Positions 15,520-57,705 of a stretch of 64,000 bases of DNA are shown piece by piece (position 1 is the stretch's first letter; the number at the start of each line of letters is the position of its first letter). The position numbers were made by a program, and so were the translations under genes. Origin of the DNA: Xanthobacter autotrophicus (GTDB lineage: Bacteria > Pseudomonadota > Alphaproteobacteria > Rhizobiales > Xanthobacteraceae); contig NZ_VAUP01000037.1 of the NCBI RefSeq assembly GCF_005871085.1, positions 62,001 through 126,000 on the forward strand, given 5' to 3'. The notes beneath the pieces were generated by a model, which searched no databases, was not told the DNA's origin, and saw only the letters and a list, made by a program, of their open reading frames with translations.

Positions 15520-16545
15520 ATGTTTGAATCAAATGACCTCCTCGTAGGAACGCAGATTCCACCCACACTTTTTTTGACTGATAAAGATGTAGGCAAGCTG
15601 TGCGAATGGCGAAATGCGGTGATGGCGCTGCGAAGCGCATATGCAGCATCTCGCGATCGTCCCGCTCTTCCGCCACGTACAATGGCCCGAGGTGACGGAA
15701 TTTGGTTGCGAAGTCTCACGGCGATATCGCCCAGCGGGGATTTCATGGGATGCAAGTTAATCGCCGCTTCACCTCGAAGTGGATATGTAAGTTACCTAAT
15801 TTCATTGTTCAACGCAAAGACAATGAATTTGGCTGCGCTCATCGACGGCAATCAAGTAACGGGCATACGTACCGCTGCAACATCTGCAGTCGCAGTTGAT
15901 GCGATCGCACCCCATCGAGCGCTGAGGGTCACTGTGATTGGTACGGGATTTGAGGCGCAGGGGCAACTTGAGGCCCTTGCGTCGATGCGCAGGATCGAAT
16001 CCGTTAGCGTGTTCAGCCCAAGTCCAGAAAGCCGTGCTCGCTACGTCGGCAAGTTCGCGACGCTGATTCCGGATCTCAGGGTACGGGCCTGCGACTCGGC
16101 AGAAGATGCGGTAAGCGGTGCTGATGTCGTGATCTGTGCCGCCCGATCTCGTGACGAATCTCCTGTGCTTCGAGGTGCCTGGCTTCGACCCGGCATGACA
16201 GTGGTTTCCATTGGATCGACGCTGCCGGAGCAGCGTGAGGTGGATGTCGATGTCATCCGCCGCGCGGACCTCATCGTGGCGGACATCCCCGAAGAGGTTG
16301 GTCATGAAACAGGTGACATGCTGAAAGCGAAAGATGAAGGTGTCATATTCAAAGAAAAAATGTGCTCTCTTTCTTCGATCGTGAGTGGACAGCAGGAAGC
16401 GCGCCCAACGCCAGACTCAATCATTCTGTTCAAGTCTGTCGGCTCCGCATTACAGGATGTGGTGATAGCGGAAATGCTGCTCCTAAGGGCACGAGAAACA
16501 TCAGCTGGCACGCCAATTCCGGTCGGCATCGTTCCTGTGGAGTGA
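15520..16545 (+). CDS. Ornithine cyclodeaminase/mu-crystallin family protein, C-terminus cut by an IS
   Basis: A 341-residue member of the OCD family, with the Rossmann motif VTVIGTGFEAQGQLEAL at about residues 139-155, preceded by GIRTAATSAVAVDAIAP. Members include ornithine cyclodeaminase, alanine dehydrogenase, ketimine reductase and lyases of catabolic pathways, so the substrate is open. The stop TGA at 16543-16545 is the first codon of the inserted IS3 element. Crossing the IS via its GGAG duplication restores 17 more residues, ending at 19529. The missing tail is short and outside the nucleotide-binding core, so partial activity is possible. Confidence 0.88.
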   Translation: MFESNDLLVGTQIPPTLFLTDKDVGKLCEWRNAVMALRSAYAASRDRPALPPRTMARGDGIWLRSLTAISPSGDFMGCKLIAASPRSGYVSYLISLFNAKTMNLAALIDGNQVTGIRTAATSAVAVDAIAPHRALRVTVIGTGFEAQGQLEALASMRRIESVSVFSPSPESRARYVGKFATLIPDLRVRACDSAEDAVSGADVVICAARSRDESPVLRGAWLRPGMTVVSIGSTLPEQREVDVDVIRRADLIVADIPEEVGHETGDMLKAKDEGVIFKEKMCSLSSIVSGQQEARPTPDSIILFKSVGSALQDVVIAEMLLLRARETSAGTPIPVGIVPVE

Positions 16546-16959
16546 CGTTGCCCCCAACTTCTATCCAGCGGTGAGTTCGTTCTGGCGGTTGGATTTGCCC
16601 TGTCGGGCGTGCGGAGCGGCGGGGGCAGACGCGGAGCCGTTCATGATGCGGAGCGTCTGATCCCGCCGCGGGTGGAACGTTGAGGCGAAGGCGCTTGGCG
16701 TCTGCCATCCGAGCTTCGAGTGCGGCCGGTCGGTGTTGTAATCGACCTGCCACCGGGCGAGAGCGGCCCTGGCCTGGGACAGGCTGGAGAACAGCGTTTC
16801 GTTCAACAGCTCGTCCCGCAGGCGGCCGTTGAAGCTCTCAATGAAGCCATTCTGCATCGGCTTGCCGGGCGCGATGTAGTGCCACTCGACCCGAGCCGCG
16901 TCGGCCCAGCCCAGAATGGCGTTGGAGGTGAACTCACTGCCATAGCACATCAGGAAGGA

Positions 16960-17010
16960 GCCTCAGCCGGCGCGCGGAGCCATTGCGTCGCGCAGCGCGC
17001 CGGCTGAGGC
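16960..17010. repeat. Left-end hairpin of the IS110 element
   Basis: GCCTCAGCCGGCGCGC at 16960-16975 pairs exactly with its complement at 16995-17010, leaving a 19-base loop. The same hairpin occurs in the second copy (26488-26503 with 26523-26538), differing by one loop base. It lies just upstream of the transposase gene, and could be a recombination-site structure, part of a guide RNA, or a barrier to read-through. Confidence 0.75.
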
Positions 17011-17078
17011 GGTCATGGTCGGTCAGCAGGTCTCTAAAATGACGGTGTTCAAAGCCCCATTCCGGAGACGAACCCACC

Positions 17079-18371
17079 ATGACCACCTTGCATCCTATGC
17101 CCGATGACGTCGTTCTGGTGGCGATTGATATCGCCAAAGCGCGGAACGAGGTGCTGATCGAGACACCCGGCCAGAAGCGGCGACGGCGCATGACAGTCCT
17201 GAACACGCGCGCCGAGCACGATCGGCTGATCGTGCTGTTGAAGGGCTTTGGCCGGCCTGTCGCATGCGCCATGGAGGCGACAGGCAACTATCACCGGCCG
17301 ATCGCTTGGCGTTTGCGTGAAGCCGGCTTCCAGGTTCGCCTGGTTTCGTCGGTGGCCCTGGCCCGCACGCGCGAAGCCCTGCACAACGGCTGGGACAAGA
17401 ACGATCCCAAGGACGCCCAGGTCATTCTGCACATGCTGCGGATCGGAGCCTCGCAAACCTACCATGACCCGCTGGCCGCCGGCATCAACGACGTCCAGGA
17501 GCTATCGAAGACCCACGAGGCGATCGCCGGCGCCAAGACCCAGGTGCTGCATCGGATCCAGACACATTATCTGCCGCTCTACTTCCCGGAGGTCGACCGC
17601 TTCCGCCAGAACAGCCGAAGCGATTGGTTCTTCGCCTTCCTGGATCGGTTTCCCACGCCGGCCAGCATCACGGCATTGGACAAACCCGCGTTCATTGAAG
17701 CCGCTTGGAGCGTCGTCGGCCGGAAGGTCTCGAAGGAACGCTTACTGGGCGACATCTACGAGACGGCCAAGACCTCCATCGGCCTGCCCATCCCACTCGA
17801 AGCCCCCGCCATCCGCATGTTCCGGCTTGTCATCGCCGAGGCGCGCAGCTTGATCCGCCAGCGCAATGAGATCGAGGCCATGGCCGACCAGCTCCTGGCC
17901 GAGAGCAAGGACTATAAGCGCCTGCGACAGATTCCAGGGATCGGACCTATCATTGCCCTCGCCATTCTGGCCGAGGCCGGCGATCTCCGTCGCTTCGGCC
18001 ATCATCGCCAGTTCCTGAAGTTCTGCGGCCTGGACCTCTCGACCCAGCAGTCGGGCACATACCGCGGCCAGACCAGGTTGTCGAAGTATGGAAATGCACG
18101 TCTTCGGCGCAACCTCTGGCTCGCCGGTCAGGTTGCGATCCGGCAGAAGGAGAACAGTTTTCGCGACAAGTTCGAGCGCTACATCGCCCGCGACCGGCAC
18201 AACGCCGATCTCAGGCGCAAGGCGCTGACCGCGATCACCGCCAAGATGGCCCGCGTGGTGCACGCCATCATCAAAAGCGGTGACGATTACCGGCCCTTTG
18301 TCGAGGGGCCGGTGCCAGGTGGGAGAACCCCTCTCAGCAGTGCCGTGAGGGCGCAGCCTGCGACCCTGTAG
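17079..18371 (+). CDS. IS110-family DEDD transposase, full length
   Basis: A 430-residue IS110 transposase. The N-terminal RuvC-like DEDD domain shows VAIDIAK, AMEATGNYH and KNDPKDAQVI, supplying the acidic residues. The C-terminal transposase_20 domain shows IPGIGPIIALAILAEAGD, and a catalytic-serine region reads LSTQQSGTYRGQTRLSKYGN. The family recombines DNA through a Holliday-junction-like mechanism, and in IS110 members a structured noncoding RNA from the element's ends specifies target and donor. This copy keeps both ends and is likely active. Confidence 0.93.
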   Translation: MTTLHPMPDDVVLVAIDIAKARNEVLIETPGQKRRRRMTVLNTRAEHDRLIVLLKGFGRPVACAMEATGNYHRPIAWRLREAGFQVRLVSSVALARTREALHNGWDKNDPKDAQVILHMLRIGASQTYHDPLAAGINDVQELSKTHEAIAGAKTQVLHRIQTHYLPLYFPEVDRFRQNSRSDWFFAFLDRFPTPASITALDKPAFIEAAWSVVGRKVSKERLLGDIYETAKTSIGLPIPLEAPAIRMFRLVIAEARSLIRQRNEIEAMADQLLAESKDYKRLRQIPGIGPIIALAILAEAGDLRRFGHHRQFLKFCGLDLSTQQSGTYRGQTRLSKYGNARLRRNLWLAGQVAIRQKENSFRDKFERYIARDRHNADLRRKALTAITAKMARVVHAIIKSGDDYRPFVEGPVPGGRTPLSSAVRAQPATL

Positions 18372-18587
18372 ATAATGCTCGGGTCTCCTGCCTGGATCGA
18401 TATCTCGTCTTAAGGACGGTGAGGGCCACGGTGCGCCGATGGACCCTGTGTTTGCTATGGCCGAGAACTCTTTCCTTCCCAGCAGGGGCCGCCTGGTTCG
18501 CGTATTGACGACCATCACCCCACGAGCGCAATCTCGTGGACAGAGACATGCTGCCCAATCAGCCGCTTTCCTTCCCAACATAGGACG
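18372..18587 (+). other. Noncoding right end of the IS110 element (candidate guide RNA region)
   Basis: 216 bases between the transposase stop and the right boundary, with no open frame of note. It contains a hairpin, CCACGAG/CTCGTGG, at 18520-18539. It also contains TGACGACCATC at 18506-18516, which matches ten of eleven bases of the target flank TGACGATCATC at 18595-18605. The second IS110 copy lacks this end completely. Confidence 0.4.
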
Positions 18588-19128
18588 TTATCGCTGACGA
18601 TCATCTTGGGCCGGCCGCGCTCTGCCAGAAGCCTGTCGAGTTCGCGAGCGACCCTGACCCCGGACAGCGACGTGTCCGCCACGAGCGCCAGGCACTCGCG
18701 GGTGCAATCGTCCACGATGGCCAGCATCCGGAAGCGCCGACCATCGGTCATCTGGTCGGCGACGAAGTCGAGCGACCAGCGCTCGTTCGGTCGCATCGGG
18801 ATCATCATCGGCGCCCGCGTCCCGATGGCCCGCTTGCGGCCCCCTCGCCGGCGGACCATCAGCCGTTCCTCGCGATAGAGCCGGAACACGCGCTTGTGGT
18901 TGACCCGGAAGCCCTCGCGCCTGAGCAGGACGTGGAGACGGCGATACCCGAACCGCCGCCGCTCCTGGGCGATGGCTTTCATCCGCTCACGCAGCGAAGC
19001 GTCAGTCCCGCGCGTGGCTCTGTATCTCATGGTCATGCGGCAGAAGCCGGTGGCTTTACACGCCCGCCGTTCGCTCATCCCATGGACGTCCATGAGGTGG
19101 GCGACAGCTCTGCGCTCGGCAGCGGACG

Positions 19129-19395
19129 TCACCATTTCTTTCCCAGGAGATCCTTCAGCGCCACGTTGTCCAGCATGGCGTCGGCGAGCATGCGCTTCAG
19201 CTTGGCGTTCTCGTCTTCGAGCGCCCGCAGCCGCTTGGCCTCCGAAACGTCCATCCCGCCGAAACGGGCCTTCCACTTGTAGATGCTAGCGTCGCTGACC
19301 CCGTGCTTCCGGCACAGGTCCGAGACCGGCACCCCGGCCGCGTGCTCCTTCAGGATGCCGATGATCTGCTCCTCGGTGAAGCGGCTGCGCCTCAT
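19129..19395 (-). CDS. IS3-family orfA (IS407 group)
   Basis: An 88-residue protein with the HTH of IS3 orfA (FTEEQIIGILKEHAAGVPVS, CRKHGVSDASIYKWKARFGG) followed by a leucine-zipper-like helix (LRALEDENAKLKRMLADAML). It overlaps orfB, which lies one frame back. In IS3 elements a frameshift joins the two into the active transposase. It is intact, but orfB is interrupted, so only the OrfA regulator/inhibitor could be made. Confidence 0.9.
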   Translation of the reverse strand: MRRSRFTEEQIIGILKEHAAGVPVSDLCRKHGVSDASIYKWKARFGGMDVSEAKRLRALEDENAKLKRMLADAMLDNVALKDLLGKKW

Positions 19396-19459
19396 GTTCT
19401 GGTCCTCTCATTGGGCCAGAACGAACTTCAAGCTGGATTAGCCAGGAGGGGCAACGTCA

Positions 19460-19529
19460 GGAGAAATGGAAAGTGCCGAAGATCTCGGCGCAGACACCAA
19501 GCGTTGATTTGTGCACGGTCACCAAATAG
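19460..19529 (+). pseudogene. Detached 3' end of the ornithine-cyclodeaminase-like gene
   Basis: Starting at the target duplication GGAG, the frame reads EKWKVPKISAQTPSVDLC then TVTK and stops at TAG 19527-19529. The frame is exactly continuous with codon GAG 16540-16542 before the IS3 element, so this is the original C-terminus of that gene. It is followed 28 bases later by the next gene, as expected in an operon. Confidence 0.8.
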
Positions 19530-19557
19530 CAGAAGCTCATTTATCAAGAGTGAAATC

Positions 19558-20577
19558 ATGCATCAGTACAAAAAGAACGACGCGCGTGCATGGGCACGCG
19601 AACACCTCAAAGGGTGCTCCGCGGTAACGATCCCAAGCTACACCTCCGATCTGAGGCGATTGAACCAATCCGGGATCCGTCACGACATTGATCTAGTCAG
19701 AAAACTGGGGTTTTCCTACACCTTGCTGTGCACGGAGGTTGCAATAACTCCGCAGGAAAACGCGTTGTTCACTTCGATCGCTAGGGAGTCTGCGGGATCG
19801 GAGTTCGGCATATTTTTCCACGCAGCGTTTGGAACCTTGTCGGAAAACATCGAGGCGGTAAAGCTGGCCGAGAAGTCCGGGGCAGACATTGTTCTCTTGT
19901 CCTACCCTAGCCAGTTCTGGCCAAATTCGGAGCGGGAGATCTACGACTACACCAGGGAGCTCTGCGATGCCACCGAGCTCGCCGTCATGCTGTTTCCTCT
20001 CCCGCTCTGGGGCTTTGAGCGCGTGCATCCTGCGGGGATGTCGGTAGATCTGGTGCGACGCCTGCTTCGGGATTGTCCCAACATCGTCGCGATCAAGGCA
20101 GAGCAGGGCTATCCGCTGATTGGTGGAGTATGCGAGATGTATCACCATTTCAGGGAGGAAGTCGTGATCAGCTGTCCGATCGAGTCGGACGCCATTCCCT
20201 TGATGGGTCTGATGAAGCTGCAGTTCTCGGGAACAAGCAACACGCAATGGATGAGCGACTATTACCCAAGAGCTTTTGCGTTGGCGCGCGAAGGAAAGTT
20301 CGCTGAGGCGATGGAGCTGTACTGGCAAGTCAGTCCAGCACGGAATGCGAACGCTGCGGGAGCCCATGCGTACATTGGTGGGACGTCTGTTCTCAACCGA
20401 ACGATGTGGAAGTACCAGGATTGGCTAGCCGGGTTCAATGGTGGTCCGCTGCGTGCGCCGGCGATGCGGGTGCCGGACAAATTCATGAAGGGTTTCCGGC
20501 AGGGACTTCAGGCGAGCGGACTTCCTGTGACCGACGATCCGGACCACATGTTCATCGTGGGCCGGCATCCAGATTGA
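19558..20577 (+). CDS. Dihydrodipicolinate-synthase (DapA) family aldolase/hydratase
   Basis: A 339-residue TIM-barrel protein of the class I aldolase DapA superfamily. The Schiff-base Lys is recognisable in NIVAIKAEQG. The usual Tyr (YNVP) is replaced by Phe in VMLFPLPLWGF, which argues against a lysine-pathway DapA and for a catabolic aldolase, hydratase or dehydratase. The start at ATG 19558 follows a weak AAGAG. It originally lay 28 bases after the cyclodeaminase-like gene and is followed 12 bases later by an aldehyde dehydrogenase, consistent with an aldehyde-producing step. Confidence 0.82.
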   Translation: MHQYKKNDARAWAREHLKGCSAVTIPSYTSDLRRLNQSGIRHDIDLVRKLGFSYTLLCTEVAITPQENALFTSIARESAGSEFGIFFHAAFGTLSENIEAVKLAEKSGADIVLLSYPSQFWPNSEREIYDYTRELCDATELAVMLFPLPLWGFERVHPAGMSVDLVRRLLRDCPNIVAIKAEQGYPLIGGVCEMYHHFREEVVISCPIESDAIPLMGLMKLQFSGTSNTQWMSDYYPRAFALAREGKFAEAMELYWQVSPARNANAAGAHAYIGGTSVLNRTMWKYQDWLAGFNGGPLRAPAMRVPDKFMKGFRQGLQASGLPVTDDPDHMFIVGRHPD

Positions 20578-20589
20578 GGGCCGCTGATC

Positions 20590-22057
20590 ATGAAGAAGCT
20601 ATTGAAAGATGCTGCGCTCTGGCGCACCGGCGCACTGATCGACGGCCGCTGGATCGAAGACATGCCAGCTGGCAAGTATGTCGTGCACAACCCGGCGAAC
20701 GGGGAGCCACTGCAGGCGCTGCCGCGCTGTCAGGAAGCCGAGACCGTCGCAGCTGTTGAGGCCGCGGATCGCGCGTTCCGTGAATGGCAGACCACCACCG
20801 CCAAACAGCGCCATGAGATCATCAACCGCTGGTACCAGTTGATCGTTGAGAGCCGTGAGGATCTCGCCACTTTGATCACGTTGGAAGAGGGCAAGCCCCT
20901 GTCGGAGGCGCGCGGCGAGGTGGACTACGCCGCCTCCTTCGTGCAGTGGTTTGCCGAAGAGGCCAAGCGCGTGCGCGGCGATGTGATCCCGGCGCCGCGC
21001 GAGGGCCTGCGCATCGTGGTGCTCAAGCAGCCTGTGGGTGTGTGTGCGGCCATCACGCCGTGGAATTTTCCCGCTGCGATGATCACGCGCAAGGCCGGCC
21101 CGGCGCTAGCTGCAGGTTGCTCCATGGTGGTCAAGCCTGCCAGCCAGACGCCGTTAACCGCCTTGGCACTCGGTGAATTGGCCCTCCGCGCGGGCGTACC
21201 GGCGGGCGTGTTCAACGTGGTAACCGGCAATGACACGCGTATTATCGGTAGCGTACTCACGGGGCACCGCTTAGTCCGCAAGGTCACGTTCACCGGTTCG
21301 ACAGAAGTGGGGCGAGTGTTGCTGCTGCAGTCTGCCGCGACCATCAAGAAGTGTTCGATGGAACTGGGCGGCAACGCACCGTGCATCGTGTTCGACGACG
21401 CCGACCTGAAGACCGCGGTCGAGGGGGTTTTGGCGGCCAAGTTCCGCAACACTGGACAGTCGTGTATCGCAGCCAATCGCGTGCTGGTGCAGGACGGTAT
21501 CTACGACGCACTGGCCGAGCGGCTCGCTCTTCGTGCTACACAGCTAAAGGTCGGGAACGGGTTGGACGACGGGGTGCAAATCGGGCCACTGATCGACGGC
21601 GCGGCCGCCGACAAGGTGCAGACATCTGCGCGATGCGGTGGCCAGTGGCGCCAAGGTTCTCGCCGGCGGACAGCCCCATGCGGCTGGCGGAGCATTCTTT
21701 GAGCCGACGGTGATCGCGGGAGTCACGGCGGGCATGGCGATTGCGCGTGAGGAGACGTTCGGACCGGTGCTGCCGCTACTTCGCTTCAAGACCGAGGCCG
21801 AAGCGATCGCCTTGGCCAATGACACCGAGTTTGGCTTGGCAGCTTATCTGTTCAGTCGTGACCATGCGCGTATCTGGCGTGTCGCCGAAGCGCTCGAATC
21901 GGGCATGGTGGGCATTAACTGCGGCCTCATCTCGAATGAGGTGGCCCCGTTCGGCGGTGTCAAGCAAAGTGGCTTAGGCCGCGAAGGTTCGCAGTACGGC
22001 ATGAACGAGTTTCTGGAAACCAAGTACCTCGCCTGGGATGGTGTCACGTCCCAGTGA
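20590..22057 (+). pseudogene. NAD(P)-dependent succinate-semialdehyde-type dehydrogenase, frameshifted
   Basis: The frame from ATG 20590 (GAGGG upstream) has the aldehyde dehydrogenase motifs PWNFPAAMITRKAGPALAAG, FTGSTEVG, MELGGNAP (general-base Glu) and GQSCIAANR (catalytic Cys). It then derails after DKVQT near 21622. The C-terminal part resumes from about 21635 in another frame (ASGAKVLAGGQPHAAGG to 22057). Restoring two bases (CA) at ACAT gives the expected VQTHLRDAVASGAKVL. The sum, about 489 residues, is normal for the GabD group. The loss removes the C-terminal oligomerisation and substrate residues, unless it is a sequencing error. Confidence 0.88.
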
Positions 22058-22140
22058 GCGAGACCGCACATCTTTCTTAGAGGAGCGCGCCACCAGACGC
22101 CCGCCCTAAATCCTACCAACTAAACAGGAGGAGACAAGCC

Positions 22141-23193
22141 ATGCCCACCCATGGGAATTCCGAACTGGGCTATACGGCGGCAGACCGCAGTACCACCTTT
22201 GCACGCCATGAGATGCGTTCTGTTCACGAATCTAGTGAGCAAAAGAATACACAAATGGGCCAGCGTCTGTTGACCCACCTTCGGCATGTCGACATCGCGG
22301 TGCCAGACTTCGAAAGGCAAGTTGCCTTTTACACCGAGACGTGGGGTCTGACCATCGCCGATTCTGATGCCGGAATCGCCTTCCTCGCTGCCGAGGGTTC
22401 CCCTGAACGCTACTCAGTGCGCATCCGACGGGCCGAGGAGAAGCGACTCGACCTCATCTCGTTTGGAGCTGAGACCGAAGCCGACGTCGACCAGCTCGCC
22501 CTGGTGTTAGGCACCGCTGGGATCCAATTGGTCACCGAACCCGAAAGGCTCCGTACGCCCGGAGGGGGCTATGGCTTCCGCTTCTTCGACGTTGACGGAA
22601 GAGTCATCGAAGTATCTGCGGACGTGGCACGGCGAATGCCTCGAGCGATCGAGAAGGGTGAGTCGATCCCGGTCAAGCTGTCGCACGTGGTGGTAAACTC
22701 CCCCAACATTGGTATCACGCGCGCCTTCTACGAGCGGCATCTCGGTTTCAAGCTCTCCGACACGCTGGCACACCCGAGTGCAGGTGATCTCTTTCATTTC
22801 ATGCGAATCGACCGGACGCACCACTCCATCGCCTTCGCACAAGGACCACACACCTCGGTCAATCACCTGTCATTTGAGATGCGTGGCCTGGACGAGTACA
22901 TGCGCGGTACCGGTCGACTGCTCCGCGCCGGAGCGTCAAAGCTCTGAGGTCCTGGTCGACACCGGATCGGCAACAACACCTTCTCCTACTTCCTCGATCC
23001 TCACGGAAATGTCTTGGAGTACACCACCGAACTTCAGGTCATCGACGAAGACACCTGGCACCCGACCATCCACGATGCGACCGACCCGATGACGGCAGAT
23101 CAATGGGGCATTGCTGATCCGATATCCGAAGAGGTGTTCGAGGAGATGCGCAACGATGTTGACAAGGGTGTCTTCACAGCACCTCCGGTGTGA
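22141..23193 (+). pseudogene. Type I extradiol dioxygenase with an in-frame stop codon
   Basis: Two vicinal-oxygen-chelate domains are visible. The catalytic one begins VKLSHVVVNSPNIGITRAFY (first metal His), with the second His in SVNHLSFEM. The frame hits TGA at 22945-22947, yet the same frame continues with GPGRHRIGNNTFSYFLDPHG then NVLEYTTEL, which carries the third metal ligand, Glu. It runs on to a stop at 23193. Homologues have Trp in KLWGPGRH, so TGG to TGA is the likely change. The start has an excellent GGAGGAG site. As written, the product lacks the Glu ligand and should be inactive. Confidence 0.88.
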
Positions 23194-23361
23194 TGACATT
23201 CCTCGCGGAGTCGGAAGCGACTTCGCTCCGTCTGCCGAAGTAAACACCCTTCGTCTCCAGCATTGATGCGCGGGACTTCGCAGGATAGGCGATGCTCATT
23301 CATGCGCCTCGGAGAGTTGGCGCTCGAACGCGATGTAGCTCAGATTACGGAAAGAAAGTAG

Positions 23362-25185
23362 GTGCAACCCCAGGTAGTTACCCCTGGCGCCAAGGCGCAC
23401 TTCAAGCATATACCTGTCCTCATTGTCGGAGCCGGAGTTGCGGGGCTCACCGCATCCATCATGCTCTCGCGAATGGGCGTGGACCACATTCTGCTGGAGC
23501 GGCGGCGCGCGGTCCACGGCCTTCCTAAGGCACACATCGTCAGCGCGAAGACGATGGAGATCTTCCGGCAGTTGGGGCTCGACGAGGAGTTCTACCGTCG
23601 CGGCGGACCCATCGAGCGCTTCTCCCGGTTCAACTGGATGACGTCCCTCGCAGGTCCGACACCGCTCCATGGGCGAGAGATCGGCCACGTGGACGCGTGG
23701 GGCGGTGGTGAGGACGTCACGCGTTACGCAAATGCAACACCGTGTGAGTACACGAATCTCACTCAGATCCAGGTCGAGCCACTCCTGAATGAGGAGGCCA
23801 AGCGCTGTGCGCCGGGTCGAATCCAGTATGGCCAGGAGCTGTTGAAGCTCAAGCAGGATGACTCCGGCGTGACGGCGAGGGTCCGGAATGTCGAAAACGG
23901 TGTGGAGTGGGAGGTCCGGTCGGAGTTCGTGCTAGGCACTGACGGCGGCCGGTCGGTGGGCCGTGAGGTCGGTGTTGGCTGGGTTGGTCAGCAGGAGCTC
24001 GGCCAGGCCTTGATTATCCATTTCAGCGCGCAACTGCACCCTTGGATCAAGGATCCCCGGCAGGCCATCACGATCTTCCTCTCACCGGACAACATCGGTC
24101 ACGGCCTGTGGAGTGGAGCGCTGGTAAAAATGGGACCAACCCGTTGGGGCACGGACTCGGAGGAGTGGGTCTGCCACATCGGCATGCCAGAAACCGGCAT
24201 TCCTCAGGATGAGGCGGTCGTTGTTGACATGCTTCGCACAACCATCGGAATTCCAGACCTTGAGCCTGTCATCCATTCAGTGGGCGGGTGGTCCATCGGA
24301 GGCGTCGTCGCCGAGAAGCTCCATATCGGGAGGATCCTACTCCTCGGAGATTCTGCACACCGCCACCCACCGGCAGGTGGCCTTGGGCTCAACACGGCGG
24401 TCGCCGACGCGCAAAACGCCACCTGGAAAGTCGCGCAGATCACCAAGGGCAACGCCACCCTCGAATTGCTCCACAGCTATGAGGAGGAGCGCCTCCCCAT
24501 TGCCCGCACAGTCGTCCAGCAGGCACTCACCTGCTTGGGACGCCAGACTGAGGAAGTCGCCGCAGTTCTCCGCGGGTTCGAGCGGGGCCAGGCGGGTTGG
24601 AATGCGCTGGACCGCTTCTTCGCTGACTCGCCCGAGGGCGAGCAGTTGCGAACCGAAATGGCACAGATGTTCCGCAAAACCAACTTCGGCACTCGGATGC
24701 TCGGTGTGGAGCTGGGTCAGCAATACGTCGGCGGAGGGATCGTTTCGGACGGAAGTAGGCCCAAGCCGAATCCCGACCCGATCATTGAGTACGTCCCTGA
24801 GGCGCGTCCCGGTCACCGGGTTCCGCACGCCTGGATCTACCGCGGCTCGCAACGGAAGTCGACCATCGACCTGGCGGTCATAGATCGGTTTGTCCTTGTC
24901 ACACAACCAACTGCACGACGTGAGTGGCTTGAGGCGATCGCGGCTGCGGCGGGCGAAGTCGGCACTCCTATCGATCTCGTGACGATCGGCGAGAACGGTG
25001 ACTACGAGGACTCGATGAACAACTGGGCAGCCCTGAACGGCCTGAGCGAAGGGGGCGCAGTCTTGATCCGTCCGGATTCCTTTGTTGGCTGGCGAACTGT
25101 CGCCCTCCCGAAGAACCCTGGCCAGGAGCTTACCCAAGTCTTAACCACCATCCTGGGCAAGGCAAGGGCACTCACACACGCGTGA
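23362..25185 (+). CDS. FAD-dependent aromatic hydroxylase (phenol hydroxylase/MhpA/TfdB type)
   Basis: A 607-residue class A flavoprotein monooxygenase. The FAD fingerprint VLIVGAGVAGLTASIML is near residue 19-35. A DG motif follows (LGTDGGRSVGREVG), then the GD motif LLLGDSAHRHPPAGGLGLNT. A C-terminal thioredoxin-like extension fits the phenol-2-monooxygenase/2,4-dichlorophenol hydroxylase subgroup. It starts at GTG 23362. These enzymes use NAD(P)H and O2 to ortho-hydroxylate a phenol to a catechol, which would feed the extradiol dioxygenase encoded just upstream. Codon choices look less alphaproteobacterial than in the 28-64 kb genes, suggesting separate acquisition. Confidence 0.9.
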   Translation: MQPQVVTPGAKAHFKHIPVLIVGAGVAGLTASIMLSRMGVDHILLERRRAVHGLPKAHIVSAKTMEIFRQLGLDEEFYRRGGPIERFSRFNWMTSLAGPTPLHGREIGHVDAWGGGEDVTRYANATPCEYTNLTQIQVEPLLNEEAKRCAPGRIQYGQELLKLKQDDSGVTARVRNVENGVEWEVRSEFVLGTDGGRSVGREVGVGWVGQQELGQALIIHFSAQLHPWIKDPRQAITIFLSPDNIGHGLWSGALVKMGPTRWGTDSEEWVCHIGMPETGIPQDEAVVVDMLRTTIGIPDLEPVIHSVGGWSIGGVVAEKLHIGRILLLGDSAHRHPPAGGLGLNTAVADAQNATWKVAQITKGNATLELLHSYEEERLPIARTVVQQALTCLGRQTEEVAAVLRGFERGQAGWNALDRFFADSPEGEQLRTEMAQMFRKTNFGTRMLGVELGQQYVGGGIVSDGSRPKPNPDPIIEYVPEARPGHRVPHAWIYRGSQRKSTIDLAVIDRFVLVTQPTARREWLEAIAAAAGEVGTPIDLVTIGENGDYEDSMNNWAALNGLSEGGAVLIRPDSFVGWRTVALPKNPGQELTQVLTTILGKARALTHA

Positions 25186-25211
25186 AGTTGCAGAAGTGAC
25201 ACCCCGATTGG

Positions 25212-25246
25212 GAGGAGGCTCTTTCGCTTGAGAAATAAGCCTCCTC
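25212..25246. terminator. Stem-loop between convergent genes
   Basis: GAGGAGGCT and AGCCTCCTC are exact complements with a 17-base spacer, between the hydroxylase stop (25185) and the TetR stop (25266). It is probably a bidirectional terminator, though the following T-run is short. Confidence 0.5.
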
Positions 25247-25265
25247 TTGGACTTCCCGTGTTTGT

Positions 25266-25931
25266 TTATCCGACGTCCTTGCCTCGCCGGATGTCGATTC
25301 CGTCGAGAAAGTGTTGAACAACGGCTTCCGCCTTCACCCGCTGTTCGGTCTCACTAACAGCCTTGCCCAGAAGGGCCCAGAGTTGCAGGTCCTGTACCAA
25401 AGCTCCAACGAATATGCGTGCCGAAATGTCCGCATCGGGCACAAGGACGTCGCCCTTTGCCGCGTGTTGGCGAAGCAATTGCGCAACCGTTTCGTAGGCC
25501 CTCAGCGGCGCGTTCGTTAGGAAAGCTTCTGAGGCGTTCGGCGCTCTGGCGGCTTCCGATATGATCAGTCTGTGCAGCGCCAGCGCGCGAGGTGACAGGA
25601 GGACCTCAATGATTTTGAGACCGATCGAGGTGAGTGCCGCCCGGAGATCGTCGGAGAGTGGCACTTCCCGAAAAAGATCCGCTCGCTCTGTCGCAAGCTT
25701 TTCTACCGCCCGCCGGAACAACGTCTCCTTGTCCCCAAATAGGGCGTATATATCTCGCTTCGACCCGCCGACGAGCGCGGTGATTGCGTCGATGGAAACG
25801 CCCTCGTACCCGCGATCGAGAAACAATTCCGCCGCGGTGTCGATGATCACCGGTGCCTGGCTGGAGACAGATACGAATCGCCTCGGCAGGGCCTTCCGCT
25901 CTCCAGTTTGCCTTTGCGCAGACTTCACCAT
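25266..25931 (-). CDS. TetR-family transcriptional regulator
   Basis: A 221-residue protein with the N-terminal TetR helix-turn-helix (IIDTAAELFLDRGYEGVSIDA, then VGGSKRDIYALFGDKETLF) and a C-terminal helical ligand domain of the AefR/AcrR style (ARIFVGALVQDLQLWALLG). The start at ATG 25931 is preferred to 25955, because a palindromic operator lies at 25936-25955, directly in front. The half sites match the operator of the EmrAB-type efflux operon 14 kb away. The simplest reading is that this repressor controls both itself and that pump. Confidence 0.88.
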   Translation of the reverse strand: MVKSAQRQTGERKALPRRFVSVSSQAPVIIDTAAELFLDRGYEGVSIDAITALVGGSKRDIYALFGDKETLFRRAVEKLATERADLFREVPLSDDLRAALTSIGLKIIEVLLSPRALALHRLIISEAARAPNASEAFLTNAPLRAYETVAQLLRQHAAKGDVLVPDADISARIFVGALVQDLQLWALLGKAVSETEQRVKAEAVVQHFLDGIDIRRGKDVG

Positions 25932-25935
25932 GGAA

Positions 25936-25955
25936 ATGGTATTACACATTACCAT
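25936..25955. promoter_or_regulatory. Operator in front of the TetR gene
   Basis: ATGGTA and TACCAT are inverted repeats with eight bases between. On the minus strand it reads TGGTAAT-GTGT-AATACCA, one base from the perfect TGGTAAT-N4-ATTACCA at 11755. Position immediately upstream of the start suggests autorepression. Confidence 0.65.
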
Positions 25956-26102
25956 ATAAATGGCAAGCTCTTACAACCCACAAAGGGTGACAGCCATGAT
26001 ACACCACGTCAGCCGTGTGTCGTCAACGAACTGCGCGCCGGAACATGGTTGCCGGCGCGAAGCACGAGCAGGCCTCGTGACCTGCCCCCGCCGGTCCCTC
26101 AG

Positions 26103-26466
26103 TCATTGTGAGAGTCCAGGGATTTGGTAGCTGATCTCTGACGCCGGCGGTAGCGGCCGGTCGGCGGAGCCTTCGAGGTTGCGCAGCCGTCCGGCCGCGT
26201 GGTGCAGCCGCACCGCTTCAGGGGTAAGCCCGCCGTGGGCCGAGTGCGGCCGGATATGGTTGTAGTCGTGCCGCCAGCGCTCGATGACGACGCGGGCCTC
26301 GGCCAAGGTGGCGAACACCTCCTCGTTCGAGCACTCGTCGCGTAGCTTGCCGTTGAAGCTTTCGACGAAGCCGTTCTGCTGCGGCTTGCCCGGCGCGATG
26401 TAATGCCATTCCAGGCCGGTGCGGTTGGTCCATTCCAGTATGGCCCGGCTGGTCATCTCGGTCCCG
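26103..26466 (-). pseudogene. IS3-family orfB fragment (C-terminal)
   Basis: The frame resumes at the IS110 boundary with GTEMTSRAILEWTNRTGLEW, then [19 protein letters not shown] and RPHSAHGGLTPEAVR. These are the last DDE blocks of an IS407-type transposase. Its sequence differs clearly from the orfB at 16561, so this is a different IS3 member. The preceding SDN codons are lost with the deletion. Confidence 0.88.
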
Positions 26467-27710
26467 TAGCACATCAGGAAGGAAGGAGCCTCAGCCGGCG
26501 CGCGGAGCCATTGCGTCACGCAGCGCGCCGGCTGAGGCGGTCATGGTCGGTCAGCAGGTCTCTAAAATGACGGTGTTCAAAGCCTCATTCCGGAGACGGA
26601 CCCACCATGACCACTTTGCATCCTATGCCCGATGACGTCGTTCTGGTGGCGATTGATATCGCCAAAGCGCGGAACGAGGTGCTGATCGAGACGCCCGGCC
26701 AGAAGCGGCGGCGGCGCATGACAGTCCTGAACACGCGCGCCGAGCACGATCGGCTGATCGTGTTGTTGAAGGGCTTTGACCGGCCTGTCGCCTGCGCCAT
26801 GGAGGCGACAGGCAACTATCACCGGCCGATCGCCTGGCGTTTGCGCGAAGCCGGCTTCCAGGTTCGTCTGGTTTCGTCGGTGGCCCTGGCCCGCACGCGC
26901 GAGGCCCTGCACAACGGCTGGGACAAGAACGATCCCAAGGACGCCCAGGTCATTCTCCACATGCTGCGGATTGGGGCCTCGCAAGCCTACCATGACCCGC
27001 TGGCCGCCGGCATCAACGACGTCCAGGAGCTATCGAAGACCCACGAAGCGATCGCCGGCGCCAAGACCCAGGTGCTGCATCGGATCCAGACACATTATCT
27101 GCCGCTCTACTTCCCGGAGCTCGACCGCTTCCGCCAGAACAGCCGAAGCGATTGGTTCTTCGCCTTCCTGGATCGGTTTCCCACGCCGGCCAGCATCACG
27201 GCATTGAACAAACCCGCGTTCATTGAAGCCGCTTGGAGCGTCGTCGGCCGGAAGGTCTCGAAGGAACGCTTGCTCGGCGACATCTACGAGACGGCCAAGA
27301 CCTCCATCGGCCTGCCCATCCCACTCGAAGCACCCGCCATCCGCATGTTCCGGCTTGTCATCGCCGAGGCGCGCAGTTTGATCCGCCAGCGCAATGAGAT
27401 CGAGGCCATGGCCGACCAGCTCCTGGCCGAGAGCCAGGACTATAAGCGCCTGGGACAGATTCCAGGGATCGGACCTATCATTGCCCTCGCCATTCTGGCC
27501 GAGGCCGGCGATCTCCGTCGCTTCGGCCATCATCGCCAGTTCCTGAAGTTCTGCGGCCTGGACCTCTCGACCCAGCAGTCGGGCACATACCGCGGCCAGA
27601 CCAGGTTGTCGAAGTATGGAAATGCACGTCTTCGGCGCAACCTCTGGCTCGCCGGTCAGGTTGCGATCCGGCAGAAGGAGAACAGTTTTCGCGACAAGTT
27701 CGAGCGCTAC
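26467..27710 (+). mobile_element. Second IS110 copy, truncated at the 3' end, with transposase pseudogene (26607-27710)
   Basis: From TAGCACATCAGG onward it is nearly identical to the copy at 16943, apart from a four-base AAGG duplication near the left end and scattered substitutions. The transposase starts at 26607 and matches the full copy through DKFERY, after which the sequence switches at 27710/27711 to antisense IS3 orfA. About 60 C-terminal residues and the right end are gone. The residual frame to 27788 therefore ends in meaningless residues. The copy should be immobile by itself. Confidence 0.9.
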
Positions 27711-27770
27711 AGCCTCCTGCTCGCGCAGCACGCCGATGATCTGCGTCTCGTTAAACCTGCTCTTTTTCAC
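27711..27770 (-). pseudogene. IS3-family orfA fragment (first 20 codons)
   Basis: From GTG 27770 with GGAGACG upstream the frame reads VKKSRFNETQIIGVLREQEA, the start of an IS407-group OrfA, then ends abruptly at the IS110 junction. Together with the orfB piece at 26103-26466 it defines the two ends of one IS3 element. Confidence 0.85.
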
Positions 27771-27943
27771 GTCCGTCTCCTTGGGTGACGGACTCTCACT
27801 CAAATCGAGGGATCAGGAAGGGGGCAGGTCACTCGCAAGCGCGCGAAAGCCGATGTGGGCGCCCGCCGGACCGGACAAGATCACAACGTTGTCGGGATAA
27901 CGTCCTCGTATCCGAAACCGCTGGATCCAAAGAATTGCGCTGC

Positions 27944-29185
27944 CTAGCGCGCGCTCGCATATGGGCAGTTGCTCTCGCTCAAAGGACGGATGATCTCCTC
28001 CGCGGGCATCTCGCGCACCGCCTTGAGATAGTCCCACGGGCCATTGGAGTCCGCAGGCGACTTCACCTCGTAGAGGGTCATGCCCTTCATGAGGCGACCA
28101 TCGGCCCGCACCTTCGCGCCCCTGGCGTAGAAGTCGTTGACCGGAAGCTCCCGGATCTTCTCGGACACCTTCACCGGATCGTCCGTGCCAACCGCCTCCA
28201 CCGCCCTGAGATAGGCGAGGACCGCGCTGTAGACGCCGGCCTGCAAGTGGGTAGGGGCATTTGTGGTCCCGCGCTCGGCGCGCCAACGGCGGGTGAACTC
28301 GCGCGAGGCGTCGTCCTGATCCCAATAGAAGGGCGCCACGAACTGGAGCCCCTGCGCCGTCTTCAGCCCCAGGCTGTGCACGTTGGTGAAGTAGAAAGCG
28401 GTGGCCGCGAGCTTCTGGCCACCCTCCACGATGCCGAATTCGCCGGCCTGCTTGATGGAGTTGATAGTGTTGTCGGCCGCGTTGAGCAGGGCGATGACCT
28501 TGGCCTTCGACGCCTGCGCCTGGACGAGATAGGCGCTGAAGTCGGTGGTCGTCACCGGGTGACGCGCCACGCCGACGATCCTGCCGCCCGCCGGCACCAC
28601 CACACGCTCGATCTGCTGCTGCAGGGAGTGGCCGAACGAATAGTCGGCGACGATGAGGAACCAGCTGTCGCCACCCGATTTCACCGTCGCGCGCCCCATG
28701 GCATTGGCTATGGTGGAAGAATCATAGTTCCAGACGAAGCCGGTGGGCGAGCAGTTCTCGCCGAACAATTTGTCCGTGACCGAGCTGACATTCAGGATGA
28801 CCGCCTTGTTCTTGGCGAGGTCCTGCACGGCCAGCGAAACCGCCGAATTGCCGAAATCGACCAGGGCATCGACCCCGTCCACGTCGATCCATTTGCGGGC
28901 GATGCTGGCGCCGATGTCGGCCTTGTTCTGGTGGTCCCCGACCACCAGTTCGACGGGTTTGCCCAGCACCTTCCTGCCGAAGTCCTCGATGGCGAGCCGG
29001 GCGGAGGCCACCGAGCCCGGCCCCTGGGGATCGGAATAGGGGCCCGCCTGGTCGTTCAGCACGCCGATACGGACCACGCCGTTCGACGGTTCCGCGACAC
29101 AGGCGCCCGCCAGCGCGACAGCGCCGACCGCCGTGTATAGGACCGCAAGACCCAGTCTTTTCTTCACAGACTCATTTGCGAACAT
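27944..29185 (-). CDS. ABC-type branched-chain/aromatic substrate-binding protein
   Basis: A 413-residue periplasmic-binding protein of the Peripla_BP_6 (LivJ-like) type. It has a basic then hydrophobic N-terminus with signal-peptide character (LGLAVLYTAVGAVALAGACVA), followed by VRIGVLNDQAGPYSDPQGPG and VVGDHQNKADIGASIARKW. Its neighbours are a beta-oxidation-type operon on the same strand, but no permease or ATPase gene is present. It resembles the product of 39931-41163, sharing the DHQNKADI and ARKWID blocks. The ligand is probably the acid degraded by the operon; this is inference from position. Confidence 0.88.
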   Translation of the reverse strand: MFANESVKKRLGLAVLYTAVGAVALAGACVAEPSNGVVRIGVLNDQAGPYSDPQGPGSVASARLAIEDFGRKVLGKPVELVVGDHQNKADIGASIARKWIDVDGVDALVDFGNSAVSLAVQDLAKNKAVILNVSSVTDKLFGENCSPTGFVWNYDSSTIANAMGRATVKSGGDSWFLIVADYSFGHSLQQQIERVVVPAGGRIVGVARHPVTTTDFSAYLVQAQASKAKVIALLNAADNTINSIKQAGEFGIVEGGQKLAATAFYFTNVHSLGLKTAQGLQFVAPFYWDQDDASREFTRRWRAERGTTNAPTHLQAGVYSAVLAYLRAVEAVGTDDPVKVSEKIRELPVNDFYARGAKVRADGRLMKGMTLYEVKSPADSNGPWDYLKAVREMPAEEIIRPLSESNCPYASAR

Positions 29186-51168: not shown

Positions 51169-51951
51169 TCAGATGAACGAGACGCCGATGGCGCCGAGCG
51201 GACCGTAGTCCACCTGAATGATATCCCCGGCCGTGATGTCGACCGGCCGGGTGAAGGATCCGGCGAGCACGATCTGACCTTTCTCCAGTCCGGTGCCAAC
51301 CACATGGAGCTTGTTGACGAGCCAGGCGATGCCGGCGGCGGGGTGGCCCATGATGCCCGCGGAAACCCCGGTCTCCTCGATGATCCCGTTCTGCGACAGG
51401 GTCGCGCCCACCCAGCGCAGGTCCACGTCGAACGGACGAACCGGCCGTCCGCCGACCACGATCGAGCCGAAGGCGGCGTTGTCGGCGATGGTGTCGGTGA
51501 TCGCGCGCGGCACCTCGGTGCGATAGTCGATCACCTCGAGGGCGGGGACGACGAATTCGGTGGCGCGCAGCACGTCGTAGATGCGTACGCCGGGACCGGC
51601 GAGGTCTTCGCCCATGATGAAGGCGAGCTCCACCTCCAGCCGGGGCTTGATGAAGCGCGACGCCGGGATCCTGGCGCCGTCGTTGTAGAAGGCATCATCG
51701 AGGATCCGCCCGTAGTCTGGCTCCGTCATCTTCGAGGCGAGCTGCATGGCGCGCGAGGTCAGGCCGATCTTGTGGCCGGCGACCCGGGCGCCAGCGGCGA
51801 TGCGCGCCTGTGCCCAATAATCCTGGATGCGATAGGCATCCTCGATCTCGATGTCCGGAAAGGTCTTGCTCAATTGCGGGATGGGCTTGCGCTCCCGCTC
51901 CGCTTGCAGCAGCAATTCTGCACCCTTGCGGCGGTCTTCTTCCGACAGCAT
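51169..51951 (-). CDS. 2-oxo-hept-3-ene-dioate/2-oxopent-4-enoate hydratase (HpaH-like)
   Basis: A 260-residue hydratase of the FAH family: [57 protein letters not shown] and [15 protein letters not shown]. The start at ATG 51951 has GGAGGAG with seven-base spacing. It adds water to the 2-oxo-enoate made by ring cleavage, producing the aldolase substrate. It is the first gene of a minus-strand operon beginning opposite an IclR gene. Highly similar to the product of 53622-54404. Confidence 0.92.
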
Positions 51952-52125
51952 CAAAAACTCCTCCAGGTTGACGACGACAAGGCGATCACCGCAGCGCCGC
52001 GCCGGGTGTGGCATGGTGAAAAGCAGCTACGCGCCTGCGGCCCTCCCGCATCGCGGCGACTTCGCCGCAGGGAAGGGCAATGCGGCCGGCAATGCGCGCG
52101 GACCGATGCCCCGACAGGGCCGGCC

Positions 52126-52221
52126 TCATCGAGCAGGCGCGCTGAAATCTTGGAATTGCTGACGACCGCTCCAGCCGAAGCTTGCGGCAGCCGGGCGCAC
52201 TTGAGCCGGCGGGATGCCCAT
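52126..52221 (-). other. 31-codon open frame with a strong ribosome-binding site
   Basis: ATG 52221 (MGIPPAQVRPAAASFGWSGR…) is preceded by GGAGGAG six bases upstream and ends at TGA 52126, in the leader of the hydratase operon. It has no known family. It could be a leader peptide or the stump of a lost first gene. The rest of 51952-52377 holds only the operator. Confidence 0.3.
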
Positions 52222-52323
52222 GGTCAAACTCCTCCCTGATGACGTTCTTCGCCCGAATGAGGCATCGACCGCTGCCACGCAGCACCGATGCTCTTCCAGA
52301 GCGAGAATGTTCTTATTGAAGCT

Positions 52324-52353
52324 CATCAATCGATACATATGTATCGATTGATG
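52324..52353. promoter_or_regulatory. 30-base perfect palindrome, IclR operator
   Basis: CATCAATCGATACAT is followed immediately by its exact reverse complement, ATGTATCGATTGATG. It lies 24 bases before the IclR start and upstream of the divergent hydratase/aldolase operon. A partly matching site (AACGATACA…GCATCGTT) occurs at 60312-60331. Confidence 0.75.
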
Positions 52354-52377
52354 AATGATAGTTTTGAGAGGCACGGC

Positions 52378-53235
52378 ATGTCAACGACAAAGTCGCGGCC
52401 GCGTGCAACTGCACGCGCAGCCACCCCGCCTGCGGCAGCCCCGGGCCCGGAGGCACCGATGGGCGAGGCGGCACGCGGCGAGATGCGCCTGATTTCACGG
52501 GCGGCAGCGATCCTGCGGGCCATTGCCGATCATCCCACCGGCCTGAGCCTCGGGCAGATCGCCAAGGAAACCGGGCTGTCACGCGCCACTGTCCAGCGCC
52601 TCGTGGACGCCCTCGAGGTGGAGGGGCTGCTTGCCAAGAGCGACCTCGTGCCCGGCGTGCGGCTCGGGGTGGAGATCGCGCGCATCGCGGCCTCGGTTCA
52701 CCGGGACGTGGCACTCCTGGTCCGGCCGATTCTCGAAAGGCTCAACGCCGAAGTCGGAGAAACGGTGGATCTCACCATGCTGCAGGGCGATGCTGCCCTC
52801 GTCGTCGATCAGGTGCAGCCCGCGCGGGCCCTTCGGGTCGTCTCCCATATCGGAACGCCGCTGCCGCTCCATTGCACGGCGAGCGGCAAGGCCCACCTCT
52901 CCCAGATGAGCGGCCAGGAGGCTTCGAGCCACCTCGTCCACCCGCTGACCCGCTACACCGACAAGACGATCACCAGCCACCAGGAACTGCTGGCCGGCAT
53001 CGCCAATCCGGCTGATGACTGCTTCGTCGACGACGAGGAGTTCGCGAGCGGAGTCTGCGCGCTTGCTCTGCCGGTTCGAGGATTGGTCAGCGGCAACTAT
53101 GTGCTCTCCGTATCGCTTCCCAAGCAACGTTTTGACGAGAGCCGCGGCACCGTCGCGGACGCGCTCCGACGATGCCGCGATGCCGTGGAACGAATGGCCG
53201 GGACGGGTCCGGCGGGCCACCGTCCAGCGAAGTGA
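52378..53235 (+). CDS. IclR-family transcriptional regulator
   Basis: A 285-residue IclR protein. It begins with a basic Ala/Pro-rich stretch. A winged HTH follows (AAAILRAIADHPTGLSLGQI, ETGLSRATVQRLVDALEVEG), then the GAF-like effector domain with HCTASGKAHLSQM and the C-terminal FASGVCALALPV. ATG 52378 with GAGAGG is chosen; the longer frame would include the operator. IclR regulators of aromatic pathways commonly act as activators or repressors on divergent operons, here the hydratase/aldolase/dioxygenase genes. Confidence 0.92.
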   Translation: MSTTKSRPRATARAATPPAAAPGPEAPMGEAARGEMRLISRAAAILRAIADHPTGLSLGQIAKETGLSRATVQRLVDALEVEGLLAKSDLVPGVRLGVEIARIAASVHRDVALLVRPILERLNAEVGETVDLTMLQGDAALVVDQVQPARALRVVSHIGTPLPLHCTASGKAHLSQMSGQEASSHLVHPLTRYTDKTITSHQELLAGIANPADDCFVDDEEFASGVCALALPVRGLVSGNYVLSVSLPKQRFDESRGTVADALRRCRDAVERMAGTGPAGHRPAK

Positions 53236-53286
53236 TGTCCCGGCTTCTACCCGGGGCCGACAGGCTCAAGGGCACATCGGAAACCC

Positions 53287-53613
53287 TTAGGCCCGGAAGC
53301 GGGCGGCGAGGCCTTCCGTCGCCCGTGCCAGGATGCCGGCATCCACTCCCACTGCGGTGAAGAGCGCGCCGATCTCGATGCACCGACGGGCGAAGGCCTC
53401 GTCCCCCGTCAGGATGCCCGCTGGCCTACCGGCGGCTTGGATGCGGCGAATGGGCACGTCCGCCGGCGAATGTTCCGTGTCGAGGAGCAGCCAGTCGAAG
53501 CCGGAGCCGGCCACGATTTCGACCGCATAGGCATTCGCCAGCGTGCACCAGAGCCCGAGCTGCGGCCGCCTCGCCCGGAGCGCGTGTTTGAAGAGGTTGC
53601 GTGGCAGGTCCAT
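53287..53613 (-). pseudogene. HpcH/HpaI aldolase with large in-frame internal deletion
   Basis: A 108-residue frame starting [18 protein letters not shown]… [17 protein letters not shown], homologous to the first 52 residues of the aldolase at 50382. It jumps directly to [20 protein letters not shown]… [12 protein letters not shown], homologous to its last 55. The middle, about 150 residues with the catalytic Arg and both metal ligands (Glu, Asp), is gone although the frame is kept. It follows the duplicate hydratase by eight bases, as in the intact pair. It cannot catalyse aldol cleavage. Confidence 0.9.
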
Positions 53614-53621
53614 GGTCGTCC

Positions 53622-54404
53622 TCAGGTGAAGGAGACGCTGATGGCGCCTATCGGCCCGTAGTCGGCGGTAATAACGTCGCGGGCGGTGATGTCTACCGGG
53701 CGCGTGAAGGACCCGGCAAGCACGATCTGTCCTTTCAGCAACTTGGCTCCCACCACCGAAAGCTTGTTTACGAGCCAGGCGATACCGGCCGCCGGATGGC
53801 CCATCACGGCCGCCGACACACCGCTCTCCTCGATGATGCCGTTCTTGGACAGCGTGGCGCCCACCCAACGGATGTCCACATCCATGGGGCGAACCACCCG
53901 GCCGCCCACCACGATGGCGCCAAAGGCGGCATTGTCGGCGATGGTATCGACGATGGTGCGCGGCACATCGGTGCGATAGTCGATGATTTCCAGTGCTGGC
54001 ATCACGAATTCAGTGGCCCGCATCACGTCATAGATGCGGGCGCCAGGGCCGGAAAGGTCCTCACCCATGATGAAGGCGAGTTCCACCTCAAGACGCGGCT
54101 TGATGAAGCGCGACGCGGGGATCTGCGCCCCGTCGTTGTAGAGCGCATCGTCGAGGATGCGGCCATAATCCGGCTCGGTCATCTTCGACGCCATCTGCAT
54201 GGCGCGCGAGGTCAGCCCGATCTTGTGGCCTACTACCCGCGCGCCCGTGGCGATGCGCGCCTGCGCCCACAGGTCCTGGACGCGGTAGGCGTCCTCGATC
54301 TCCATCTGCGGGAAGGTCCGGCTGAGCTGCGCCACCGGCTTTCCCTCGCGCTCGGCGCGCAGGATCTGTTCGGCGCCGCGACGGCGCTCTTCCTCGGTCA
54401 GCAT
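53622..54404 (-). CDS. 2-oxo-enoate hydratase, second copy (HpaH-like)
   Basis: A 260-residue hydratase, closely related to the one at 51169: [60 protein letters not shown] and [15 protein letters not shown]. It starts at ATG 54404, 27 bases after the cyclase stop, in a minus-strand operon of transporter, cyclase and hydratase. The downstream aldolase is broken, so this hydratase presumably relies on the intact aldolase at 50382. Confidence 0.92.
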
Positions 54405-54431
54405 GTGTGATTGACTCCCGTCGTCGGGCTC

Positions 54432-57668: not shown

Positions 57669-57669
57669 A

Positions 57670-57699: not shown

Positions 57700-57705
57700 A
57701 CATCA

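Follow-up and report, generated by a model that had tools for sequence, protein, structure and literature searches.

A probable bridge-RNA-bearing IS110-family element specialised on the catalytic Asp-Asn-Gly codons of other transposase genes

Why do two copies of an IS110-family insertion sequence, 9.5 kb apart, interrupt two different IS3 transposase genes at the same codon? The question is raised by a 64,000-nucleotide stretch of the Xanthobacter autotrophicus genome (assembly GCF_005871085.1, contig NZ_VAUP01000037.1, positions 62,001 to 126,000 of the forward strand; hereafter, the window, to whose positions all coordinates refer). The original prediction, made without database searches, attributed the coincidence to sequence-specific targeting. 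Judging from comparative sequence analysis, the element is, very probably, a bridge-RNA IS110-family element specialised on DNA encoding Asp-Asn-Gly, the motif with the second catalytic Asp of DDE (rve-fold) transposases, and the two insertions make a strong case for sequence-specific targeting, most likely guided by RNA, of the catalytic core of genes for rival transposases.

Copy 1 is a complete element of 1645 bp (16943..18587, + strand), with the left end TAGCAC and the right end TAGGACG, delimited by the junctions of 102 loci and by an uninterrupted relative of the host gene. Its left junction reads GAACTCACTGCCA followed directly by TAGCAC, and its right junction reads TAGGACG followed by TTATCGCTGAC. 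It splits an IS3 orfB gene into a C-terminal piece that begins at the Gly after Asp-Asn (16561..16942, - strand; PF13683, tblastn) and an N-terminal piece that ends at the Asp-Asn codons (18588..19276, - strand; PF00665 to position 74 of 102, tblastn), so that the host gene continues, across the right junction, at Asp-Asn. Copy 2 (26467..27710, + strand) is truncated, retaining about 380 transposase codons, with the bridge RNA and the right end lost; its left junction is preserved (CTCGGTCCCG followed by TAGCAC) and adjoins a C-terminal piece of a second, different IS3 orfB that likewise begins at Gly (26103..26466, - strand; PF13683, tblastn). Both left junctions lie directly before the Gly codon of Asp-Asn-Gly, and the sequence TAGCACATCAGG is present twice in the window, at 16943 and 26467, against 0.17 occurrences expected with one mismatch allowed. 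A contiguous empty site is found in the uninterrupted IS3 relative L108 of the same genome (L-numbers are labels of the loci gathered for comparison), where window position 16942 corresponds to 1707 and 18588 to 1706. The base that precedes the left end is A or G and, given this variation, looks like target sequence; the base that precedes TTRTC is G in 76 of 76 right junctions, in a separate count that allowed any base (the pattern of the main junction count forces this G), and, being invariant, looks like the element's own.

The similarity of the two copies (transposases 96% identical over 380 amino acids) and their proximity would fit a duplication of one insertion; this is contradicted by the flanks, since the C-terminal pieces of the host IS3 genes are 53-59% identical as proteins, far below the element copies, and we regard such a duplication as extremely improbable. 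Thus, the claim that two copies occupy the same codon point of two distinct IS3 genes holds, and so does the caveat that copy 2 has lost the matching side of its target, leaving only the left junction readable. The sequence of copy 2 ends near 27711, and, by eye, another IS3-like sequence seems to start there (27711-27800), which points to a later insertion or deletion.

To survey the flanks, we took the best 80 of 351 relatives, chosen by transposase similarity alone, and placed the ends by element sequence only. Further loci came from 397 relative genomes (8 with a match), a few class- or phylum-wide searches, and plasmids, for a total of 102 loci. In the sample of 80, the left flank is CCR (R, A or G) at 69 loci; six copies are in tandem, one flank is irregular, three loci have no left end by the pattern, and one runs into a contig end. 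The right flank is TTRTC at 64 loci and different at two; seven loci have no right end, four run into Ns, and three into a contig end. L078 was scored as lacking a left end although CCA before TAGCAC is readable there. Across all 102 loci, CCR was found on the left in 86 and TTRTC on the right in 78; the number of distinct flanks is 71 on the left and 66 on the right. In the antisense direction, these sequences spell the codons GAY AAY GGN. Two outcomes had been named in advance as speaking against targeting, namely, that most other copies occupy unrelated, non-IS3 sites and that a single duplicated junction accounts for the coincidence; neither appeared in the survey, and the inference of sequence-specific insertion is upheld. 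Relatives occur in many Alphaproteobacteria, and one that is 46% identical is carried by a Salmonella plasmid. For four relatives from other phyla, with 25-28% identity, the ends were not placed, only their own transposase is annotated within 1.2 kb, and no IS3 match was found. In L005 and L085, the right end is one base short (TAGGAG versus TAGGACG) and is perhaps defective; L104 and L105 are incomplete relatives.

The interrupted genes are diverse. A piece of IS3 orfB lies at most 450 bp from the transposase in 62 of the 80 loci, and these pieces are widely divergent. When nine flank pieces were compared with NCBIfam, IS481 scored best for L017, L021 (with IS3 close behind), L023 and L090, IS3 for L024, IS3 and IS481 almost equally for L067, and IS30 for both pieces of L053; the remaining piece is MutL. 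The IS481 and IS3 scores fall below the whole-protein cut-off, as may be expected for fragments, and the IS30 scores exceed it; the two IS30 pieces cover profile positions 87-196 and 198-267 on opposite sides of the element. Six of the ten non-IS3 left pieces pass the Pfam cut-off for rve_3. Altogether, almost every readable copy in the sample lies between an Asn and a Gly codon, antisense to the host gene, in different members of the IS3, IS481-like and IS30 groups. The analysis adds two points to the original prediction, namely, that some targets are IS481-like or IS30 transposases and that the element carries a predicted bridge-type RNA with guides matching the site. Five copies in Afipia birgiae (L026-L029, L077) adjoin the same IS481-like sequence with an identical left flank, which reflects either repeated targeting or the spread of a composite.

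The core of the predicted bridge RNA (18315..18466, + strand) overlaps the 3' end of the transposase gene and consists of a target loop followed by a donor loop. It was aligned across 69 of 76 distinct RNAs, those of L015, L031 and L065 (donor loop missing) and of L021, L059, L077 and L091 being omitted. The predicted fold comprises two hairpins with internal loops and 32 pairs, with 97.7% of the cells paired and 21 of the 32 pairs changed on both sides; the covariation score is 0.399 versus 0.215 for shuffled alignments, and none of 500 shuffles did as well on these measures. The number of further pair types was reached by 85 of the 500 shuffles, and slid versions of the structure were far worse. 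In the putative target loop, GCCGU lies on the 5' side and GAYAAUG on the 3' side, and they match CC[R]TT[R]TC in the order seen in IS621: the left target guide AGUGCCGU (18339..18346, + strand) runs in the same sense as NNGCC[R]T, the left target, and the right target guide GAUAAUG (18371..18377, + strand) is complementary to C-R-T-T-R-T-C. In the donor loop, the left guide AAGGACG (18412..18418, + strand) matches the right end TAGGACG, and the right guide UGCUAUGG (18453..18460, + strand) is complementary to C[C][R]TAGCA at the left end. An alternative target guide, CUCGGG, 3' of GAUAAUG, was rejected because GGG and the following bases belong to the outer stem. A scan of positions 16500-28000 against Rfam returned a single match, with 19.3 bits against a gathering score of 300, that does not lie at the RNA.

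The donor guides change together with the ends of the element. Among 65 elements, the left end TAGCA occurs with the right donor guide GCUAUGG in 44 and TAACA with GUUAUGG in 14; the other seven are TAGTA with GCUAUGG (three) and four single types. This set excludes L015, L016, L031 and L065, in which no donor guide was found, as well as L002 and L014, which were removed individually. Identical proteins, proteins ending short of 395 amino acids, and loci in which the patterns detected no left end or no RNA were also dropped. The combination of TAACA and GUUAUGG occurs in three places of the transposase tree, namely, in L051, in L088 and in the clade of L053. In L101 and L103, which are 46-47% identical, both the right end and the left donor guide have changed from GGAC to GTCC (TAGTCCG and AAGTCC, respectively), and despite these changes, both keep the target guide GAUAAUG and the same site. 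In the tandem copies (L046-L050 and L020/L095), the right end is joined to the left end as TAGGAC-GT-AGCAC, and a fragment in the window's own genome, L003, contains a similar junction, TCGGACGTAGCACGG. This is the sequence expected of a circle junction and thus points to a GT core in the donor, the target core being AT or GT; the U at the core of the donor guide would be suited to excision at left junctions with either AT or GT.

The target guides appear to accommodate synonymous codons. Opposite the third position of the Asn codon, 68 of 69 RNAs have G in the left guide and all 69 have U in the right guide, so that either an A-T or a G-C target pair would be read by one Watson-Crick and one wobble pair. 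Opposite the third position of the Asp codon, the right guide has U in 62 of the 69 RNAs and C in seven; over 65 distinct right flanks, the guide-target pairs at this position are U-G in 49, U-A in nine and C-G in seven. The targets occupy the codings GAC-AAC (37 of 61), GAC-AAT (15), GAT-AAC (5) and GAT-AAT (4). Since its bases at the synonymous positions are G and, mostly, U, the guide found most often can pair with any of the four if wobble is allowed. If tuned to the most frequent coding, a guide would carry C at both third positions; U in the guide may have been selected rather than inherited. Codon use in uninterrupted rve genes was tried as a control and dropped, given that a loose motif rule yielded 11 sites, some of them doubtful.

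Several observations weigh against specialisation on this motif through RNA guidance. The right flanks of L013 and L060 are not TTRTC, and the left flank of L066 is irregular. Among the non-IS3 left pieces, the Pfam match of L017 is below the threshold, and L018, L067 and L013 have no match (the last two pieces are very short). The left flank of L064 is mutL, starting at MutL's own DNG codons, and that of L088 is the end of a gene for an oligopeptide ABC transporter, in another frame. The right flanks of both these loci lie in an IS3 gene, so that each seems to be the rearranged remnant of a copy formerly situated in a host gene. These hybrid sites hint at off-target insertion with later rearrangement, and they suggest that a DNA sequence, not the identity of a gene, is recognised. 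L032, which is outside the 65-element set, combines TAGCA with GUUAUGG, a wobble pair. Furthermore, the target guides hardly vary, and hence covariation cannot be demonstrated for the target loop; a guide C at the third position of Asp meets G in seven of seven cases, but G is found there in 56 of 65 flanks anyway, and this uninformative agreement was discarded as evidence. The constancy of the target across the clade would be compatible with recognition of the site by the recombinase protein alone, the conserved RNA serving some other role. We consider such protein-only recognition very improbable because the predicted loops correspond to the target as well as to the two ends, changes in the donor loop accompany those in the left end, and RNAs of this kind serve IS621 and ISEc21 (PMC11208160 and PMC11187229).

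The most serious difficulty concerns specificity. The 8-bp core CCRTTRTC occurs 331 times in the host genome (333 for the reversed control), and GKNCCRTTRTC occurs 48 times (control, 38), against only six rve matches, one of which is the gene hit by copy 1; pairing alone therefore does not explain the near-exclusive location in transposase genes. Something else is required, be it a survival filter, an undetected component of recognition, or the two together. In the former case, insertion would take place at any CCRTTRTC-like site, selection would eliminate copies in host genes, and copies in dispensable transposase genes would persist. The excess of core sites over rve matches and the left flanks in mutL and the ABC transporter gene, which suggest that non-transposase sites can be reached, favour such a filter, but it would also have to purge insertions from intergenic regions and accessory genes, and of the 69 CCR left flanks, only that of L064 is shown to lie in another gene; we give this explanation somewhat less than an even chance. 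Alternatively, recognition extending beyond the 8-9 bp core, through longer pairing, DNA structure or protein contact, might confine insertion to DDE genes. Suggestive of such an extension is position -5, where 57 of 70 targets and 65 of 70 left guides have G; these counts are of distinct left flanks, with L014, L064 and L088 removed by name and loci without an RNA dropped. However, the non-IS3 and exceptional targets share, by eye, little besides CCRTTRTC, and outside the core, the left guide pairs on average at 2.14 of 4 positions in 70 real sites, only a slight advantage over the 1.84 in 68 other CCRTTRTC sites. This difference was too weak for longer left-guide pairing to be retained as the source of specificity. 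Extra recognition is possible, although on balance we doubt it.

By its recombinase, the element belongs to the IS110 family. The predicted product of copy 1 is a DEDD/Transposase_20 recombinase of 430 amino acids (17079..18371, + strand) that matches PF01548 and PF02371 above the cut-off, NF033542 with 225.9 bits (cut-off, 140) and the IS621 structure 8wt6 with E=1.4e-24. In the alignment with IS621, inspected by eye, the catalytic D, E, D, D residues and the SG motif are conserved. As in the IS110 family, the predicted RNA has target and donor internal loops that match the target and the element's own ends. The order of the guides is that of the IS110 group, with the bottom-strand complement 5' of the top-strand complement (GCCGU before GAYAAUG), and the IS1111 order was rejected, the left guide lying 5' of the right one; this order is the criterion that separates the two groups in PMC11187229. 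The RNA and long non-coding region (NCR) of the IS110 group are located upstream, whereas here the RNA overlaps the 3' end of the gene and the downstream region, although some IS110-type elements with a downstream NCR are described in the same source. The transposase, at 430 amino acids, is longer than the 330-350 typical of the IS1111 group and differs from the ISEc21 subgroup, which has related transposases of 345-385 amino acids and an upstream NCR. In function, the element resembles ISEc21, inserting where IS3 genes encode their second catalytic D. The subterminal parts of the ends show, by eye, a short imperfect resemblance (IS1111-group elements have subterminal inverted repeats of 7-17 bp).

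Targeting of these catalytic codons is already known from ISEc21, and the idea itself is not new: Siddiquee et al. 2024 (PMC11187229) located the ISEc21 target in the codons that specify and surround the second D of the DDE triad, in a subset of IS3 transposases. Both are guide-RNA-directed IS110-family elements, with the bottom-strand match 5' of the top-strand match. As a proxy for ISEc21, we used the only annotated IS110 transposase in positions 1-50000 and 51500-62673 of pCRE3-KPC, a plasmid reported to carry ISEc21 (PMC7096625); its 358 amino acids equal the published length. This protein shows no significant BLASTP similarity to the transposases of the present clade (best E 0.02, 24% identity over 49 amino acids). 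The RNA of ISEc21 is encoded upstream, and that of the present clade at the 3' end of the gene; the ISEc21 copy compared here follows an IS3 frame that ends in VIVHSD, in the sense orientation, whereas the present elements split Asp-Asn from Gly antisense and also occupy IS481-like and IS30 hosts. The frame before ISEc21 has a weak tblastn match to the IS3 piece in the window (E 0.001). The dissimilar transposase, the upstream RNA and the sense orientation make convergence likely; both lineages are IS110-family members in a broad sense, and they probably reached these codons independently.

The present element shares with IS621 the recombinase family, a target loop and a donor loop, each with the left guide followed by the right guide, and a second core base T that is almost invariant (PMC11208160, PMC11208158). 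IS621, however, inserts in REP elements, carries its RNA within the left end, uses a CT core and is reported to strongly prefer pairing to both core strands (PMC11208160). The present element has an RNA that overlaps the 3' end of the transposase gene and an RT core, with G and U in the guides opposite the variable core base. Closer relatives are ISMex12 and ISRel25 (names from plasmid annotation), with transposases 82% and 69% identical, respectively, and the same guides; both junctions of ISRel25 and the left junction of ISMex12 fall between Asp-Asn and Gly, and literature searches found no description of their targets. IS4321/IS5075 and the attC-targeting IS1111 elements likewise target part of another mobile element, but their reported targets are transposon ends or attC sites, not a catalytic codon. 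In the open-licence literature, searched mostly at the level of titles and abstract openings, we found no description of a second lineage with such a target, of an extension to IS481-like or IS30 genes, or of a synonym-tolerant guide; the word "wobble" is absent from the main text of the bridge RNA and seekRNA papers that we checked, and a literature search for it was likewise empty.

By analogy with IS621, the recombinase would use the guides to insert a circular form, with strand exchange at an RT core that is GT in the donor and either AT or GT in the target. Where the guides face the third positions of the Asn and Asp codons, G in the left one and U in the right one would allow a single guide to read all synonymous codings. 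Once inserted, the element stands between the catalytic Asp-Asn codons and the remainder of the host gene, presumably inactivating the host transposase. A broader reading, to which we give an even chance, is that the guide is a synonym-tolerant, RNA-encoded reading of catalytic Asp-Asn-Gly in any coding and in any family with the motif, that the element is a general parasite and silencer of rival transposons, and that ISEc21, without detectable transposase similarity, reached the same codons independently. The element itself, most likely RNA-guided, is addressed to the catalytic motif of a protein and not to a single locus, and two transposase lineages without significant similarity at the same Asp codon would be a clear case of convergence. 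It becomes testable whether bridge guides are degenerate through G-U wobble and whether targeting of transposons by a transposon limits the spread of IS3, IS481 and IS30 elements.

Within copy 1, a 16-bp inverted repeat lies between the left end and the transposase (16960..17010, + strand; arms 16960-16975 and 16995-17010). By eye, many relatives share this repeat and a further conserved, hairpin-like stretch before the transposase start, at about 17030-17075, and a role of both in the control of transposase expression is possible.

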